Shown piece by piece: positions 5,973-55,847 of a stretch of DNA of 64,000 nt. Below the pieces are notes generated by a model. The model was given only the letters and a program-made list of their open reading frames with translations. It was not told where the DNA came from and ran no database searches. Numbering within the stretch: position 1 is the stretch's first letter; each line of letters opens with the position of its first letter. The DNA is from Bacteriovorax stolpii. Its GTDB lineage: Bacteria > Bdellovibrionota > UBA2428. The stretch is from positions 1-64,000 of the forward strand of contig CAMCVE010000006.1 of NCBI GenBank assembly GCA_945881775.1, written 5' to 3'. Position numbers and translations under genes: made by a program.

Positions 5973-7259
5973 TCAGGAATCCACATGGCGATCGACTTCG
6001 GCGCCGAGAGCTTCGAGCTTGTGCTCCATGGTCTCGTAGCCGCGATCGAGGTGATAAATGCGCTTGATCTCGGACTCACCGTCGGCGACGCAGGCCGCCA
6101 GAACCAGGCTGGCACTCGCCCTTAAATCTGTCGCCATAACGGGGGCCCCATGTAGGGTCCCGCGCTTGCCCTTGATTCGAACCGAAGACCCGCTGATCGT
6201 AAGGTCTGCGCCCATGCGCACCAGCTCGGGGACGTGCATGAATCGATTTTCGAAAATGGTCTCAGTCACGAGACTGTCTCCATCGGCCTGAGTCATGAGC
6301 GTGATCCATTGGGCCTGCACATCTGTGGGAAATCCAGGAAATGGCGCGGTGATGGCATCCACGGGACGGATCTTTTCAGATCCGATCACACGCACATAAT
6401 CGGCACCTCGCTCGACCTTGGCGCCCGTTTGCTCGAGCATCTGCAAGACGACTTCCATGTCATCGGCGCAGGCGCCCCTCACAGTCACGTCGCCGCCGCT
6501 CATCTGCGCCCCAATAAGATAAGTCGCCACTTCAATGCGATCAGGAGGAATGGCGAAGTCCATCGGCCTGAGCTTCTCGACGCCTTGGACTTCGATCGTC
6601 GACGTTCCTTCGCCAGAGATCATCGCACCCATGCCACGCAGGGCTTTTGCAAGCGACTGGATTTCGGGTTCGCGTGCTGCGTTCTCGATGACGCTAGTTC
6701 CTTGAGCGAGCACCGCTGCCATGAGAGCATTTTCGGTGGCGCCCACTGAGACTTTAGGGAAGATGACCTTGCCTCCACGGAGGCGTCCTTTGCACGAAGC
6801 CTCGGCATATCCGTTTGTCTGAACGATATCGGCGCCAAGTTTTTCGAGTGCCATCAAGTGAAGATCGATCGGACGCGCGCCAATCGCGCACCCGCCGGGC
6901 AAAGAAACTCGAGCACGCCCTGTGCGAGCGAGAAGAGGACCCATACAAAAGAAACTCGCGCGCATTTTGCGCACGTAATCGTAAGGGGCCTCACTGCTGG
7001 TGATCTTTGTGGCGTCGACCATCCAGTCGGCGCCAAAGCTCTTATGAAAACGTTGCTCAACGGGACATCCAAAATGCAAAAGCATTCGCTGCGAAAATTC
7101 CATATCGGCGAGCCGCGGCACATTTCGAACCGAGTGGCGCCCTTCTGCGAGCAGTGTCGCGAACATGATCGGCAGAGCGGCGTTCTTCGAGCCGCCCGCG
7201 TCGATCGTGCCTTTGAGTCGATGGGGTCCCTTAATGACGAATTTATCCACGCGCCACAT
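5973..7259 (-). CDS. murA: UDP-N-acetylglucosamine 1-carboxyvinyltransferase MurA
   Basis: A protein of about 428 residues catalysing the first committed step of peptidoglycan synthesis, transfer of enolpyruvate from PEP to UDP-GlcNAc. Visible marks are GGSKNAALPI near the N-terminus (catalytic Lys) and LPGGCAIGARPIDLHL with the active-site Cys that fosfomycin alkylates. Cys is present, so the enzyme itself is predicted to be fosfomycin sensitive. I chose the ATG at 7259 (MWRVDKFVI); a GTG at 7250 would give the family-typical MDKFVI start and a TTG at 7277 is also in frame. It lies 32 bp after prmC in the same direction. Confidence 0.96.
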   Translation of the reverse strand: MWRVDKFVIKGPHRLKGTIDAGGSKNAALPIMFATLLAEGRHSVRNVPRLADMEFSQRMLLHFGCPVEQRFHKSFGADWMVDATKITSSEAPYDYVRKMRASFFCMGPLLARTGRARVSLPGGCAIGARPIDLHLMALEKLGADIVQTNGYAEASCKGRLRGGKVIFPKVSVGATENALMAAVLAQGTSVIENAAREPEIQSLAKALRGMGAMISGEGTSTIEVQGVEKLRPMDFAIPPDRIEVATYLIGAQMSGGDVTVRGACADDMEVVLQMLEQTGAKVERGADYVRVIGSEKIRPVDAITAPFPGFPTDVQAQWITLMTQADGDSLVTETIFENRFMHVPELVRMGADLTISGSSVRIKGKRGTLHGAPVMATDLRASASLVLAACVADGESEIKRIYHLDRGYETMEHKLEALGAEVDRHVDS

Positions 7260-7291
7260 CTTAGGTCGGAGCTTCAAGAAAGGCGAGAGCT

Positions 7292-8134
7292 TTAAGCGAG
7301 GCGCTGCATGATCCAGAAACGGGCTTTGCCCCCCATGTCGGAGACGAGTTCCCCTGACCAGAGAGGATAGTTTTGCTTCACGTGTTCAGAGATCCAAGAC
7401 GCCTGAGGCGCCCCGAGTTCAAAAGCTGCAATGCCTCCCGGCTCGACACAATGCTGGGCCAATCTGATGAGCTCTCGGTAAGGGCCGCTCGCATCGGGGA
7501 AGCGCCGCAAATCCTCTGGGAAAAGAGCAGAATGAGGCTCCCACTCGGCAACGCTCTCGTCAGGTTTGTCAGCGCCGACTCCCGAGATGTAAGGAGGATT
7601 TGAAACAAGAACTTGAATGCGCTCTGGAGGCCACTCGAGCCAAGACCCCTTAAACAAATTTGCAGTGGGTGCGTGCTGAGCAATGTTCTTCTCTAAACAT
7701 GGCCAAGCCTCTTCAGACAACTCGATGAGCGTGAGCTTGGGGTCTAGTTGCGGCCGTGAGTTTCCCGCTTCCAACTGAAGAGCAATCCCGAGACACCCTG
7801 ATCCCGCTCCCGCGTCGACAATGTGCCACGAGGGGAAGGTCCTGTTGCGAGAGCGCATCCTCTCCAACACAAGATCCACAAGTTCTTCTGTCTCTGGTCG
7901 AGGAATGAGAACGCCCGGCGCGACATGAAATTCGTGACTGCGAAAAGCCCAGTGCCCAAAGATGTAGGCGAGGGGCTCGCCCTTGCTTCTTCGCTGGAGA
8001 ACTTCCTGAAGATATGAGTCCCCGCGTCCGAGTCTCAGCATTTCATCCAGCACCCAGCGAACTTCGTGCTTTACCCCTAGTGCTTCCATCCCTTTTTGGA
8101 ACAAAATGAAAGCCGCCTCGTCAGTCATCGTCAT
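7292..8134 (-). CDS. prmC: Peptide chain release factor N5-glutamine methyltransferase PrmC
   Basis: Methylates the Gln of the GGQ motif in release factors. The protein has an N-terminal helical domain, the SAM-binding motif region (VDAGAGSGCLGIALQLE) and the diagnostic NPPY signature (SNPPYISGV). The frame is open further upstream, but that part lies inside prfA. The ATG at 8134 or the one at 8128 (MTDEAAFILF) fits the family and overlaps the prfA end by a few bases, implying translational coupling. Its neighbour prfA encodes its substrate. Confidence 0.94.
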   Translation of the reverse strand: MTMTDEAAFILFQKGMEALGVKHEVRWVLDEMLRLGRGDSYLQEVLQRRSKGEPLAYIFGHWAFRSHEFHVAPGVLIPRPETEELVDLVLERMRSRNRTFPSWHIVDAGAGSGCLGIALQLEAGNSRPQLDPKLTLIELSEEAWPCLEKNIAQHAPTANLFKGSWLEWPPERIQVLVSNPPYISGVGADKPDESVAEWEPHSALFPEDLRRFPDASGPYRELIRLAQHCVEPGGIAAFELGAPQASWISEHVKQNYPLWSGELVSDMGGKARFWIMQRLA

Positions 8135-9254
8135 CGTGAGAGGGCTTTGCAGACATCGAATCGGGAGATTCTCCGCGAAGAGCGAGGGTCTGATAATGGT
8201 CAGCCAGAGCCTGGATGAAAGGCTCGACGCCGCCACCCATGACCGCATCGACGTTCTGAATCGTCATACCGATACGATGATCGGTCACACGGCCCTGCGG
8301 GAAATTGTAAGTGCGAATACGTTCATTGCGCATACCGGTACCGACCTGAGCTTTGCGAGCCGACGAGATGGCAGCGTTCTGCTCAGCGGCGGCCTTGTCA
8401 TAAAGACGCGTGAGAAGAACCTTCATCGCCTTGGCTTTGTTCTTGATCTGGGATTTTTCGTCCTGACAAATCACAACCGTATTTGTGGGCAAGTGCGTGA
8501 GTCGCACGGCTGAGTCGGTGGTGTTCACGGACTGACCGCCGTTGCCGCCCGCACGGAACACATCCGTGCGCAGGTCGTTGGGATGAATCTGAATGTCGAC
8601 TTCCTCGGCCTCCGGGAGCACAGCTACAGTAGCCGTACTTGTATGAATACGTCCGCTGGCCTCGGTTTTGGGCACGCGCTGAACCCGGTGCACACCGGTC
8701 TCGTACTTCATTCGGCTGTAAACTGCGTCGCCTTCGATCAGAAAGATAATTTCTCGAAATCCGCCTGAAGTGGCTTCGGAAAGGCTAAGAAGCTCAGTCT
8801 TCCAACGCTTGGACTCAGCAAACCGCGTGTACATGCGGTAGAGGTCGCCCGCAAAAATTCCAGCCTCATCGCCCCCCACTCCCGCACGAATTTCCACCAC
8901 CGTATTTTTTTCGTCGTTAGGATCTTTGGGTAGCAGCAAGAGTTGCAGTTTTTTGAGCTCGTCGTCGAGCTCGGGCTCGAGTTGAGCGATCTCCTCTTGA
9001 GCCATCCCGCGCATCTCGGCGTCTTTGGTGTTCGAGAGAATTTCCCGTGCGTCGATGTAATTTCTAAGCTTACGCCCATAGGACTCATACGCCATGACCA
9101 TGGGCTCAAGCTTGGCGCGCTCTTTACTAATCTTTTGATAGATGTCGGTACGCGCAAGCGTTTCAGGCTGCATGACCTGCTCTGTGAGATAATTGAAATG
9201 CTTGAGGGACTCGTCGAGCCTCTCAAGCATTTCTTTTTGTGGAACATGCGCCAT
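8121..9254 (-). CDS. prfA: Peptide chain release factor 1
   Basis: A 377-residue class I release factor for UAA and UAG. It shows the catalytic GGQ loop (RAGGNGGQSVNTTDSAVRLT) and RF1-type sequence upstream (GVHRVQRVPKTEASGRIHTS). The C-terminus ends in four aspartates (SHDDDD), slightly extended. The 3' end overlaps prmC. It lies 20 bp after rho in a rho-prfA-prmC-murA series on one strand. Confidence 0.96.
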   Translation of the reverse strand: MAHVPQKEMLERLDESLKHFNYLTEQVMQPETLARTDIYQKISKERAKLEPMVMAYESYGRKLRNYIDAREILSNTKDAEMRGMAQEEIAQLEPELDDELKKLQLLLLPKDPNDEKNTVVEIRAGVGGDEAGIFAGDLYRMYTRFAESKRWKTELLSLSEATSGGFREIIFLIEGDAVYSRMKYETGVHRVQRVPKTEASGRIHTSTATVAVLPEAEEVDIQIHPNDLRTDVFRAGGNGGQSVNTTDSAVRLTHLPTNTVVICQDEKSQIKNKAKAMKVLLTRLYDKAAAEQNAAISSARKAQVGTGMRNERIRTYNFPQGRVTDHRIGMTIQNVDAVMGGGVEPFIQALADHYQTLALRGESPDSMSAKPSHDDDD

Positions 9255-9274
9255 TTCGCAGAAACCGCTTGCCG

Positions 9275-10900
9275 TTAACTGTTCATGTTGGCGATAAACT
9301 CATCGTTTGTTTTGAAACGCTTGAGCTTGTCGATCATGAACTCCATGCTATCGACGGCGCTCATTGGCGAGAGGACCTTACGAAGGATCCAAAGCTTTTG
9401 GAGCGTGTCGTTCTTGATGAGCAAGTCTTCTTTGCGAGTGCCGGACTTGTTGACGTCCATACAGGGGAAGATCCGCTTTTCCATCAGCTTCCGGTCCAGA
9501 GAAATTTCGCTGTTACCTGTGCCCTTGAACTCTTCAAAAATGACTTCGTCCATACGGCTGCCGGTTTCAATCAGCGCAGTGGCAATGATTGTCAGAGAGC
9601 CGCCGTTCTCAATGTTACGAGCGGCTCCGAAGAAGCGTTTGGGACGTTGAAGTGCGTTTGAGTCGACACCACCGGACAGAATTTTGCCAGAGGGAGGAAC
9701 AACGGAGTTGTAAGCGCGACCAAGGCGCGTGATCGAATCGAGTAAGATCACGACGTCTTTTTTGTGCTCCACAAGGCGCTTCGCTTTTTCAATGACCATT
9801 TCGGCGACTTGAACGTGGCGCTGAGCGGGTTCGTCGAAGGTCGAGAAAACGACTTCGCCCTTCACAGAGCGCTTCATGTCAGTGACTTCCTCAGGCCGCT
9901 CGTCCACCAGAAGAACGATCAGGGTGACTTCGGGGTGGTTCCGAGTGATCGCGTTGGCGAGATCCTGCATCATCATCGTCTTGCCGGCCTTGGGAGGCGC
10001 AACGATGAGTGCTCGCTGCCCTTTACCGATCGGCGCGAAAAGGTCGATCACTCGTGTGGTCATGTTCGAAGGATCGAACTCCAGATTAAAGCGCTCGTTA
10101 GGATAGAGGGGCGTGAGATTCTCGAAGAGGATCTTTTGACGAGCAACGCTGGGATCTTCATCGTTCACCGTGTCCAGACGCAAGAGAGCGAAGTAGCGCT
10201 CTCCAGGATTTGGAGGACGAACTGATCCACCTACGGTGTCTCCGGTGCGCAGCGAATTCTTACGAACTTGGCTAGGTCCGACGTAGATATCATCGGGGCT
10301 TGCGAAATAGTTGTAGTCTGACGAACGCAGGAATCCAAAACCGTCCGGGAGAATCTCTAAGACTCCCTCGGCGTAGATCGCTCCTCCGGCTTTTGCGTGA
10401 GCCTGAAGAAGCGTGAAGGTGAGATCTTGACGACGAAGGCCAGAAGCGTTGTCGACGTAGTACTTCTCTGCGAGCTCCACGAGATCTTTGATTGGCATCT
10501 CGCGCAGTTCACGTATGTTGAGCTTTTCGACGATCGGCTGCGTCAGTCGCGGACGCTCTTCCTTGCCAGAATCATCATCTCCACCAAGATCGGCATTGGG
10601 GGCGTTGTTGGCGTGGCGGGAGCGGTTCTGATGATGGTTGTGATTGTTTTGCTGCTGCTGGCCTTGGCCAGAGTGTTGGTGGCTCGCATTGTTGTTCTGA
10701 TTGCCCTGGGGTTGCGGCCCCGCCGTTCCTTGGGAGTCCGCGCCGTCCGCTACAGACTCTTGAGATGATTGAGGATCGAAGGAAGCGTTGCCACCGGATT
10801 CATTCCCGCCATCGCGGCGCTTCTGGGAGTGGGGTTTGCCACGCCCTTTGTTAAAGCGACCGCCACCGCGTTTTTGTGACTTTTCTGGGTTTTCGGACAT
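9275..10900 (-). CDS. rho: Transcription termination factor Rho with long low-complexity N-terminus
   Basis: A 541-residue hexameric RNA-dependent ATPase that ends transcription. Residues 1-125 are a Gly/Asn/Gln/His-rich disordered extension. The Rho_N helical domain starts near 127 ([19 protein letters not shown]), followed by the cold-shock-like RNA-binding domain ([13 protein letters not shown]). The ATPase core has Walker A (APPKAGKT), Walker B ([10 protein letters not shown]) and the [10 protein letters not shown]-loop region. GGAGG lies 9 bp before the ATG. N-terminal insertions of this kind are known in Rho from several phyla and can affect RNA binding or drive condensate formation. 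Confidence 0.96.
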
Positions 10901-53500: not shown

Positions 53501-53578
53501 GGTGGCTGTAGTTCAGTTGGTTAGAACGCTAGATTGTGATTCTAGAGGTCGCGGGTTCGACCCCCGTCAGTCACCCCA
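53501..53578 (+). tRNA. tRNA-His (anticodon GTG)
   Basis: A complete cloverleaf with the extra 5' G (-1) typical of tRNA-His and C at position 73, acceptor GTGGCTG/CAGTCAC, anticodon loop TTGTGAT (GTG), T-loop TTCGACC and encoded CCA. Its last 20 bases are part of a 72-bp direct repeat that recurs 2.2 kb downstream, marking it as an integration site. Confidence 0.95.
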
Positions 53579-53630
53579 ATTTTAGGTTGAAGTTTGCACT
53601 CCGCAAAAAATTCACAAACAAACTCAAACG
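53559..53630. repeat. Left 72-bp direct repeat (attL-like)
   Basis: The first 21 bases, which include the tRNA-His T-stem/acceptor 3' end and CCA, are identical to 55776-55796. The whole 72-bp stretch matches 55776-55847 at 67 positions. The repeat extends about 50 bp past the tRNA end. Confidence 0.9.
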
Positions 53631-53701
53631 CCTCTAAACACGAAGCTGGGTTAGCTCGTGGGCTTGTTCATTTCATCAGATTTCTGGGAATACCTGTAGC
53701 T

Positions 53702-53744
53702 TGCTACTTTTTTGCTACACGGATGCTACACCGGTGCTACACGG
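53702..53744. repeat. Four tandem 11-bp TGCTAC repeats
   Basis: TGCTAC recurs at exact 11-bp intervals at 53702, 53713, 53724 and 53735; the last three share TGCTACAC(C)GG. An inverted half (TGTAGC, 53695-53700) precedes them. They lie between the left repeat and the antitoxin gene. Spacing near one helical turn suggests cooperative protein binding, such as integrase arm-type sites, an excisionase or a plasmid-like initiator. Confidence 0.8.
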
Positions 53745-53745
53745 C

Positions 53746-54063
53746 CTAAGCAGCGGGCTTGAGCGAAACGCTGTATTTGAGACCTGCGGCAGCAAGGCTT
53801 TCTTCGATAGACATCTCAACCAATAGATTCACAGAGTATCCCAGTACCTTGGCAATTTCTGCGGCCTTTTCGGGACTCACACCTTTGCGCCCCATTTCGA
53901 TGTCGCAGAGATTTGCACGGCTGATACCAAGTTTCTTTGCAAAAGCTACTTGAGAGAGCTCATTGCTCATTCGCCAAGATCTCAGGAAAGCTGCCACGCT
54001 TCTTTTTCCAAGACGCTTTTCGAGATCTTTGATTCCGTATGAATTTTTACTTTTTGTACTCAT
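53746..54063 (-). CDS. XRE-family antitoxin, HigA-like
   Basis: A 105-residue protein with a Cro/C1-type HTH in the middle (QVAFAKKLGISRANLCDIEMGRKG) followed by a short dimerisation tail. It overlaps the end of the toxin gene by 17 bp, in toxin-first order as in higBA. The HTH probably binds the palindrome in the promoter upstream and, with toxin, autoregulates the pair. It sits inside the tRNA-His element. Confidence 0.85.
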   Translation of the reverse strand: MSTKSKNSYGIKDLEKRLGKRSVAAFLRSWRMSNELSQVAFAKKLGISRANLCDIEMGRKGVSPEKAAEIAKVLGYSVNLLVEMSIEESLAAAGLKYSVSLKPAA

Positions 54064-54331
54064 GTTTACTCACCTTTGTTACTTCTGCGACCTTGATGCT
54101 TCCGTCGGCAGATTCGAAATAAAAGACCCTGTGCGCCTTTGAGATTCGCACTGACCGGAGCCCTGCCAACTCGCCACGCAACTTTTCGTCGTGGTATCCT
54201 GCGAGCTTTCGAATGGATTCCATTCCATCTTTCTCGACTGCCTTGGCCCAGTCATAAAAAGACCCCACGATATACTCCGGCAGGTCATCCAACTGTTTTT
54301 GAACTTTCCGACTCCAACGCACCTGCCACAC
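54047..54331 (-). CDS. RelE/ParE-superfamily toxin, HigB-like
   Basis: A protein of about 94 residues from a GTG at 54331 (MWQVRWSRKVQKQLDDLP). It follows the HigB-like pattern: DWAKAVEKDGMESIRKL, then GYHDEKLRGELAGLRSVRIS, HRVFYFESADGSIKVAEVTK and a KHEY end. Family members are ribosome-dependent mRNA interferases neutralised by the partner antitoxin. The frame is open upstream to 54511, but that part lacks family similarity and would run through the promoter. The -10 sits only six bases before the GTG, so the mRNA may be leaderless. Confidence 0.8.
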   Translation of the reverse strand: MWQVRWSRKVQKQLDDLPEYIVGSFYDWAKAVEKDGMESIRKLAGYHDEKLRGELAGLRSVRISKAHRVFYFESADGSIKVAEVTKVSKHEYKK

Positions 54332-54337
54332 AACCTC

Positions 54338-54366
54338 ACTGTACTGCTTTAAGAAGTACAGATCAA
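54338..54366 (-). promoter_or_regulatory. Toxin-antitoxin promoter with embedded operator palindrome
   Basis: Minus strand: -35 TTGATC (54361-54366), 17-bp spacer, -10 TACAGT (54338-54343). A perfect inverted repeat CTGTACT-N9-AGTACAG (54339-54361) fills the spacer and overlaps both boxes, an ideal position for an antitoxin to block polymerase. Confidence 0.7.
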
Positions 54367-54621
54367 CCCTTAAACATTGGGATGCTCTTGATTTGTGCCG
54401 GCCAAACCCCGCAATTTTTTGGATAAATATTGGAAATTTAAAAGCTACGCTGACCTGTGGTTGGCTATAGGCTTTGGGGCTACGGAGGCCTGCGCGCGTA
54501 GCGTTTGCCATAGTTCAGTTTATTAAACACCTGATGAAATGCTGGGACTTTCCGCCGCGATCCGCGAAGTTCAGACATTGGATTTCTAGACGCTTCAATA
54601 GAACGACGATACCCTGATTGA

Positions 54622-55071
54622 GTGGTAAAGATCAGGAGCGCTCTCCCTGTAGACGCTCAAGAAATTTCTAAGGTCGAGTCTGAGGCCCATCCGCAGGAAG
54701 TCGCAGCAACTCTCGAAGATTTTCGCGAGTATCTTAGCGATCCACAGAAACGGCAAACGATTTTAGTCGCTGAAAACGACGGCATTGTAGCCGGCTTCCT
54801 CGGCTACACAATTCAAGAGAAGTATCGAGTATATATCTGGGATATTGCAGTCAGGCAGAATCAGCGGTCGAGAGGAATCGCAACGAACTTACTGACGGCC
54901 CTAATCACCAAGGCGGCAGCCCAGGGCATGCGTTCCGTTTTTCTAAAAGTTTCTGATGAAAATATTCCGGCGCATCGCCTATACGGTCGATTCAATTTTG
55001 TCCTAAAAGATCAACTCAAAGACTATTACGGACATTCTCGGGATGCTTTTGTTTTGGAGCTTATTTTATAA
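54622..55071 (+). CDS. GNAT family N-acetyltransferase
   Basis: A 149-residue protein with the acetyl-CoA-binding motif A (IAVRQNQRSRGIATNLLTAL; R-x2-G-I/L-A pattern) and motif B region (NIPAHRLYGRFNFVLKDQLKDYY). This resembles RimI-type peptide acetyltransferases. The substrate is unknown; it could be a cargo gene. Start is GTG. It lies inside the tRNA-His element and has a strong terminator downstream. Confidence 0.85.
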   Translation: MVKIRSALPVDAQEISKVESEAHPQEVAATLEDFREYLSDPQKRQTILVAENDGIVAGFLGYTIQEKYRVYIWDIAVRQNQRSRGIATNLLTALITKAAAQGMRSVFLKVSDENIPAHRLYGRFNFVLKDQLKDYYGHSRDAFVLELIL

Positions 55072-55116
55072 CCCTAAACTTTAAGCCGGGCGCTGCCCGT
55101 TAGACTTCAGAAAAAG

Positions 55117-55154
55117 ATAACGCCGGTCTGGAAAAATCCAGATCGGCGTTTTTG
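55117..55154 (+). terminator. Intrinsic terminator after the GNAT gene
   Basis: AACGCCGGTCTGGA pairs with TCCAGATCGGCGTT (one G-T pair) around AAAA, followed by TTT; the T-run of the stem and tail together is TTTTT. Confidence 0.88.
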
Positions 55155-55221
55155 CTTCGTATTTCCTAGCTCTTCTAATCTTCGATCCGATCAAAGATTA
55201 GTGTTTTAGACTGCTGAGAAT

Positions 55222-55350
55222 TCAACTGGGGACTTTCTCGGGTTCAATTTTTGAAAATATATCCAGGATCTCTTGGTAAATAGGAGATTCAAACTGAATT
55301 AAACATACTTCATTATCTGAGAATACTGTGCACTCATATTCAGCAGCTCT
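55222..55350 (-). pseudogene. Possible remnant of a truncated gene (3' end)
   Basis: On the minus strand this stretch encodes AEYECTVFSDNEVCLIQFES followed by a helical IYQEILDIFSKIEPEKVPS tail and a stop. It looks protein-like, but upstream the frame runs antisense into the recombinase fragment and no suitable start is present. It may be the surviving 3' end of a gene cut at the same junction as the recombinase. Weakly supported. Confidence 0.3.
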
Positions 55351-55663
55351 GTCTAACAAATTTTGGGAATGGGAAAAGGACGAACAGGCGCGTGTGCTCA
55401 GGCACCTCTGCAAAAGCATCGGCATCACGCTCGTGAAGTTTCACGACCTCAGGGCAACGTTCATCACGCAGCTTTTGCTTAAAGGTGTTTCTCTGGCCCA
55501 GGTCATGGCTATCGTAGGTCACGCGGAACTCAAAACCACCAACCGCTATCTGCGAGTTCTAGGAACCGATCTGGACGGAGTCACAGACAAGCTCGGCTTT
55601 TCGCTCCCACAAGACCAGCTCGCCAAGGTTATCGACCTTAGGGCGAGCGGGGAAAGGGGGTGA
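55328..55663 (+). pseudogene. Tyrosine recombinase/integrase, C-terminal fragment
   Basis: About 111 codons that carry only the C-terminal part of a phage-type integrase: FHDLRATFITQLLL (HxxR, box II), VMAIVGHAELKTTNRYLRV (His and the nucleophile Tyr). The N-terminal arm/core-binding domains and the first catalytic Arg are missing. Integrase-like sequence begins at about FWEWEKDEQARVL; codons before that do not fit. It points towards the right direct repeat, as integrases often lie next to an att site. Confidence 0.85.
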
Positions 55664-55718
55664 GATAAGATGCGTTTTTGGCTCCAAGTTCCGCTAAAAA
55701 TGTTGCCTTGCGCCACTT

Positions 55719-55735
55719 GGCTACACGGCGCTACA
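55719..55735. repeat. Two further GCTACA repeats near the right end of the element
   Basis: GGCTACACGGC (55719-55729) matches the left-end repeats and is followed by GCTACATT at 55730, a 10-bp interval. They lie 40-55 bp inside the right direct repeat, mirroring the left-end cluster. Confidence 0.7.
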
Positions 55736-55775
55736 TTCGACTTCGATCTCATTAGTAATTACGGGATGATGACGG

Positions 55776-55847
55776 GACCCCCGTCAGTCACCCCAAGTTT
55801 AGATTGAAGTTTGCACTCCTTAAAAAATTCACAAACAAACTCAAATG
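55776..55847. repeat. Right 72-bp direct repeat (attR-like)
   Basis: The second copy of the repeat at 53559-53630: 21 identical bases covering the tRNA-His 3' end, then about 51 bp with five mismatches in total. The remainder of the tRNA is absent here, as expected for the distal end of an inserted element. Confidence 0.9.

Follow-up and report, generated by a model that had tools for sequence, protein, structure and literature searches.

The integrases of Tn916/ICE elements and of the lambda type carry an N-terminal domain that reads short direct repeats, the arm sites, at the ends of the element. Elements that have lost their integration and transfer genes but keep attL and attR, and that may be moved after accretion, have been called CIMEs (PMC5704250, after Pavlovic et al., 2004, and Bellanger et al., 2011). 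The Islander search for tRNA and tmRNA islands accepts a candidate only if it has an integrase gene and spans 2 kb or more (PMC4383910). In Dehalococcoides, islands are stacked in tandem at ssrA, and the roughly half of them without an integration module have been proposed to be cis-mobilizable (PMC3146451). Finally, the tycheposons of Prochlorococcus are described, at second hand in PMC10872708, as tRNA-bounded elements with tyrosine recombinases and cargo.

The locus compared here with these systems lies at positions 53559-55847 of a 64-kb stretch of DNA, which we call the window. We consider it very probable that a small integrative element once inserted into the tRNA gene here and that this segment is what an internal deletion has left of it. 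The integration target is tRNA-His(GTG) (53502-53578, plus strand; ARAGORN; Rfam RF00005, 67 bits), the 3' end of which is restored. A 72-bp direct repeat brackets the element. Its attL copy (53559-53630, plus strand) consists of 20 nt of the tRNA 3' end and a further 52 nt, and its attR copy lies at 55776-55847 on the same strand, so that the restored 3' end of tRNA-His and the 3' fragment at the far end of the element have the same orientation. The copies are identical at 67 of 72 positions, with mismatches only at positions 22, 28, 45, 46 and 71, and the identical first 21 bp are the last 20 bases of tRNA-His plus one. The length and identity of the repeat and the identical first 21 bp agree with the original prediction. 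A genome-wide search returned the second copy with an E-value of 7e-25 and found no third. The G+C content of the element is 0.47, compared with 0.58 in the flanks. The sole further near-match to the repeat on the same contig (G000:C6:91557, two mismatches) was considered as a third att copy that might bound a larger outer element, and was rejected because it falls within a signal-peptidase-like (lepB) gene. A tRNA-like 15-mer at 54511 is a short two-copy match that we judged to be due to chance.

The anatomy of the ends provides a second line of evidence. A left-end motif with an inverted-repeat stretch (53621-53690, plus strand; CTAA..TTNAAAACAC ... ATTTC..GAAATTTC) aligns with the left ends of related elements. 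It is followed by four GCTAC arm sites at an exact spacing of 11 bp (53703, 53714, 53725 and 53736; together 53703-53744, plus strand), and matching arm sites are found at the right end, GCTACACGG at 55720 and GCTACATT at 55730 (55720-55734, plus strand). These terminal arm repeats, which lie inside both ends, were absent from the earlier reading of the bare sequence. A GCTAC triple at 11-bp spacing is unique to the left end in the whole genome. Within the 64-kb window, GCTACACGG occurs only at 53714, 53736 and 55720. Because all of these sites are at the two ends of the element and nowhere else in 64 kb, they tie the ends together independently of the 72-bp repeat.

What remains of the integrase is a C-terminal fragment (55367-55663, plus strand, within an open frame at 55328-55663) that corresponds to residues 272-362 of about 365. 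It is 67% identical to the relative at locus L034. The HxxR, H and Tyr motifs are kept, and the arm-binding domain, the core-binding domain, the first Arg and the Lys are absent. The loss of the N-terminal part had been predicted and extends to three quarters of the protein. As the first catalytic Arg and everything N-terminal of it are gone, no active recombinase is possible, a verdict that draws on established knowledge of tyrosine recombinases. No full-length integrase of this family was found in the element's own genome, where the recombinases that could be considered as cognate enzymes are only 24-27% identical, and a search of other reading frames for remnants of the N-terminal part gave nothing convincing. 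Homology to the integrase begins abruptly at 55367, and an orphan frame on the minus strand (55222-55365), which would encode the C-terminal 48 aa or so of a protein, stops at about the same place. The simplest reading is that one internal deletion fused the 3' part of a cargo gene to the 3' part of the integrase gene. The orphan frame would then be a possible remnant of the lost cargo gene; a search with it gave no convincing relative from which that gene could be named. The deletion could also be an assembly join.

Since both ends are kept and the N-terminal three quarters of the integrase are lost, our results support the view that the segment is an att-bounded, self-immobile relic that resembles a CIME. 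As in CIMEs, the integration function has been lost while attL and attR have been kept, and related elements accrete at the same site. In contrast to CIMEs, the window element gives no sign of ever having had conjugation genes, and toxin-antitoxin pairs and arm repeats are prominent in its family. Its relatives are 4-13 kb in size, with no visible transfer genes in those examined; transfer genes were found neither in the window element nor among the gene families named for L044, L051 and L253. With the islands sought by Islander, it shares the integrase-mediated split of a tRNA gene and the 3' fragment at the far end. It differs from them in that the integrase of its family is at the tRNA-distal end, and, since only an integrase fragment is present, it is a relic of a tRNA-integrated island rather than a functional one. 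The Dehalococcoides islands are similar in their tandem stacking at one RNA gene, partly without an integration module, but use serine recombinases and the tmRNA gene, whereas here one tyrosine recombinase family uses several tRNAs. Tycheposons are likewise bounded by tRNA sequence and carry tyrosine recombinases and cargo, but have other hosts and other cargo. Other origins were rejected. No structural or packaging genes of a prophage or phage satellite were found in the window element, and no close relative was found in viral or phage collections. An integron cassette does not fit, because the ends are tRNA 3' copies with arm repeats and the integrase scores 49 bits against an integron-integrase cut-off of 265 bits.

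Full-length relatives of the integrase were sought and found. A scan of species genomes with the fragment gave 72 loci, 69 of them at 49-67% identity and the other three weak. The 69 loci come almost entirely from records titled Bdellovibrionota, Oligoflexia or Bacteriovoracia, with other taxa named in the titles of a few MAGs. They represent a family of tyrosine recombinases whose full-length members are about 365 residues long and combine an integrase catalytic domain with a SAM-like core-binding domain. The latter, like the N-terminal arm-binding domain, is shared with Tn916- and lambda-type integrases, although the closest phage and plasmid integrases are just 25-28% identical. Intact elements follow one blueprint: a tRNA gene, about 50 bp, a conserved motif, a set of three or four arm repeats that are 11 bp apart, toxin-antitoxin genes or cargo, an integrase (in some cases with an excisionase), arm repeats and a copy of the tRNA 3' end. 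The integrase reads away from the tRNA and stops about 15-115 bp before the core. The core finishes with the acceptor 3' strand of the tRNA and CCA, and His-, Pro-, fMet- and Ser-like ends are recognizable, the tRNA type being assigned by eye where it was taken from the core alone. Short arm repeats lie between the integrase stop and the core; in the branch to which the window element belongs they are TTGCTACTTNNTGCTACTT. In the alignment of left ends, tRNA-CCA is followed by some 45 variable bases, a motif similar to CTAAnTAnTTnAAAACAC and a stretch with inverted repeats; then come the 11-bp-spaced arm repeats. This motif and the 11-bp period of the arms are shared by the left ends and tandem junctions of most relatives, and the window element fits the alignment. 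With a fragment of the cognate integrase, 11-bp-spaced arms at both ends and the left-end motif, it belongs to this Bdellovibrionota family of tRNA elements. The original prediction of a decayed integrative element in tRNA-His is thus supported, as only residues 272-362 of the integrase remain and the ends are those of intact relatives.

Four complete elements illustrate the family: L044 (tRNA-Pro, 5.3 kb), L051 (tRNA-Pro, 5.7 kb), L253 (tRNA-Ser, 3.9 kb) and L252 (tRNA-Ser, 13 kb). The plan of L253 (tRNA, a CopG antitoxin/DUF4160 pair on the minus strand, cargo, the integrase on the plus strand, att) matches that of the window element. L051 has a Gp49-like toxin with an HI1420-type antidote, and both L051 and L044 encode a small HTH_17 protein directly upstream of the integrase that is probably an excisionase. 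Toxin-antitoxin pairs were present in seven of the ten delimited units examined. The arm repeat varies with the branch of the integrase (GCTAC, GGTAAC, TTGCCAA, TGATGAC or GTGAAC), which looks like a specificity code. We found no description of this family in Bdellovibrionota in the literature searched, of which subscription journals made up a small part, and these small tRNA-targeting elements are widespread and apparently undescribed.

All four genes that had been reported between the repeats were confirmed: an HTH_3 antitoxin, a ParE/RelE-like toxin, a GNAT gene and the C-terminal part only of a Phage_integrase gene. The HigA-like antitoxin (53746-54063, minus strand, 105 aa) overlaps at its start by 17 nt with the toxin (54047-54331, minus strand, about 94 aa). 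The toxin frame is open to 54511, but homologues begin at about 54331, and we place the start there. Matches to Pfam PF05016 and to HTH_3 above the cut-off, together with conservation of the pair in relatives, predict a toxin-antitoxin system of the ParE/RelE superfamily. The pair had been thought to look intact. This holds for the open reading frames and for their conservation, but the toxin deviates at otherwise conserved positions (HDEP to HDEK and GQRS to GLRS). Homologues of the antitoxin are found in 121 of 291 genomes of the phylum (E ≤ 1e-8), and a homologue of the toxin (E ≤ 1e-10) is also present at 14 of 20 antitoxin loci examined. As most homologous pairs have no recognizable att repeat adjoining them, the pair counts as a common module, and its homologues were rejected as markers by which the window element could be traced. 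The GNAT acetyltransferase (54622-55071, plus strand, 149 aa) has one weak relative only among 192 genomes of the phylum and is therefore probably acquired cargo. A strong terminator-like hairpin, not assigned to a strand, lies 3' of it (55119-55150). A defence-system label was rejected, as the PADLOC matches are to generic HTH domains only, and so was an RNA element, as the weak ctRNA_pGA1 match is the terminator hairpin and scores far below gathering. At another locus (L262, 9904-10309), tRNA-Leu is followed after 13 bp by the end of a gene related to the window antitoxin, and the two are oriented relative to each other as tRNA and antitoxin are in the window.

The site was also compared with the nearest genomes available, all from other genera of the same family. 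In these, carD and cysS still precede tRNA-His, and the stretches compared contain no second repeat behind it (L106 and L108; at L107 only cysS is seen, and at L108 the contig stops shortly behind the tRNA). The HEAT-repeat gene to the right of the element has no ortholog in these relatives, and the right flank is not alignable. The comparison, which covers the cysS-tRNA-His side, therefore supports absence of the element in these genomes, short of a base-exact empty site.

Related loci contain arrays. At L048, L062, L072, L077, L093 and L095, the left end of another element, with motif and arms, stands directly behind the att core of the integrase (190-205 bp past the integrase stop, where measured), and this is tandem accretion. 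At L060, L093, L095, L079 and L049, successive cores enclose units that lack an intact integrase. Among them are units of 1.5-2.9 kb with toxin-antitoxin pairs, some of which have matched terminal arms: L093 6361-8021 carries a Gp49/HTH pair and L095 1910-4771 carries mobile mystery proteins A and B (HTH and Fic). In both, the arms at the left end match those at the right (TGATGAC) and differ from the arms beside the neighbouring integrase, which suggests a different cognate integrase. L060 also has units of this kind between successive tRNA 3' copies (6394-9429). The first has a BrnT/CopG-type pair and a C-terminal integrase remnant between two cores, a parallel to the window element; the second has mobile mystery proteins A and B (HTH and Fic), and no matching right arm was found for it. 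Arm matching was a 7-mer test that also gives chance matches between unrelated ends. Two clear units and one negative thus lend limited support to a putative mobilization of integrase-less units in trans. The original prediction had also remarked on how far the repeat runs past the tRNA. The 50 bp were confirmed, but the feature is not unique, as L049 (about 557-2915) has a similar repeat of about 88 bp, its extent read by eye, with copies 2.26 kb apart. That repeat consists of a tRNA-His-like 3' end and a terminator hairpin. Between its copies lie genes for an amino acid permease and for a CDP-alcohol phosphatidyltransferase, but no integrase gene. We tentatively suggest, as a possibility we would not yet favour, a system spanning the phylum Bdellovibrionota in which one tyrosine recombinase family with matched 11-bp arms moves both autonomous elements and 1.5-3-kb integrase-less toxin-antitoxin units into tRNA 3' ends, where they are stacked in arrays. 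This would be an integron-like capture of genes on tRNA genes, with the window element as one unit.

These arrays bear on how the window element should be understood. It might be non-autonomous by design, one of a class of integrase-less, toxin-antitoxin-carrying elements with matched arms that are moved in trans, so that the truncated integrase would be the normal mobile state. The L093 and L095 units, with their cores, toxin-antitoxin pairs and arms unlike those of the neighbouring integrase, point in this direction, as do the first L060 unit and the retention of both ends in the window. We nevertheless regard this as rather unlikely, because the element is present in a single copy in a genome that has no cognate full-length integrase, the 7% divergence of its repeats suggests a long stay, the second L060 unit has no matching right arm, and in no genome pair was the same integrase-less unit seen at two sites.

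A different difficulty for a simple integrative element is that the homology beyond the tRNA (about 50 bp, 92%) exceeds what a crossover within the core alone would require. Two explanations were weighed: that a copy of the region downstream of the host tRNA-His came with the element, and that the second copy is all that is left of a tandem neighbour. If a further element had once followed this one and had been deleted except for its left tip, the second repeat with its 50 bp, the homology past the tRNA end would be explained, and left ends behind att cores at the six tandem loci, together with repeats past the tRNA in such arrays (L049 and L093), give this idea some basis. We think it improbable, as neither a left-end motif nor arm sites were found downstream of 55847, where the terminator and 3' end of a native gene follow within 40-50 bp, and as there is no third core copy. 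The end of the repeat coincides with the start of the element-specific left motif, and the end of a native gene lies just behind the second copy. Both points favour the carried downstream region; integration would then restore the tRNA 3' end and its trailer together. That the repeat contains tRNA sequence might also suggest chance or an ancient tRNA duplication with unrelated genes between the copies. This is extremely improbable, because, of the tRNA, the second copy repeats no more than the final 20 bases, its genome-wide match is far too strong, and the integrase stop and arm sites directly precede it as in intact relatives, an anatomy that contradicts duplication.

Based on these results, we propose a history for the internally deleted element. 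Recombination between the attP of a circular form and the 3' end of tRNA-His would have inserted the element, the N-terminal domain of the integrase binding the 11-bp-spaced GCTAC arm sites at both ends and its catalytic part cutting within the tRNA 3' core. The tRNA would have received its present 3' end, together with the following 50 bp, from the element, and its original 3' end would have been displaced by 2.2 kb. A later internal deletion with its junction near 55366 may then have taken the N-terminal 271 codons of the integrase, any excisionase and some of the cargo, leaving an element that should be unable to excise itself. The toxin-antitoxin pair near the tRNA end probably penalizes loss of the element. 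As both ends remain with arms and cores, the relic might in principle still be moved, either by a cognate integrase acting in trans or after a related element has accreted.

Taken singly, the window element is an ordinary decayed tRNA island, and illustrates decay in which the ends and an addiction module remain. It is the family, with its 11-bp arms, toxin-antitoxin cargo and tandem stacking, that is worth following, because the relatives outline a seemingly undescribed group of very small tRNA-targeting elements in lineages of predatory bacteria. With the matched terminal arms, trans-mobilization of integrase-less units can be put to a direct test. Island finders that insist on an integrase miss such units, and Islander, with its two requirements, would filter them out. 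In a separate observation, a different full-length tyrosine recombinase gene (about 2731-3891 of L133, G000:C14:66000-72637) lies just behind tRNA-Arg(TCT), and a copy that is 71% identical is found at the start of contig C3 (L134).
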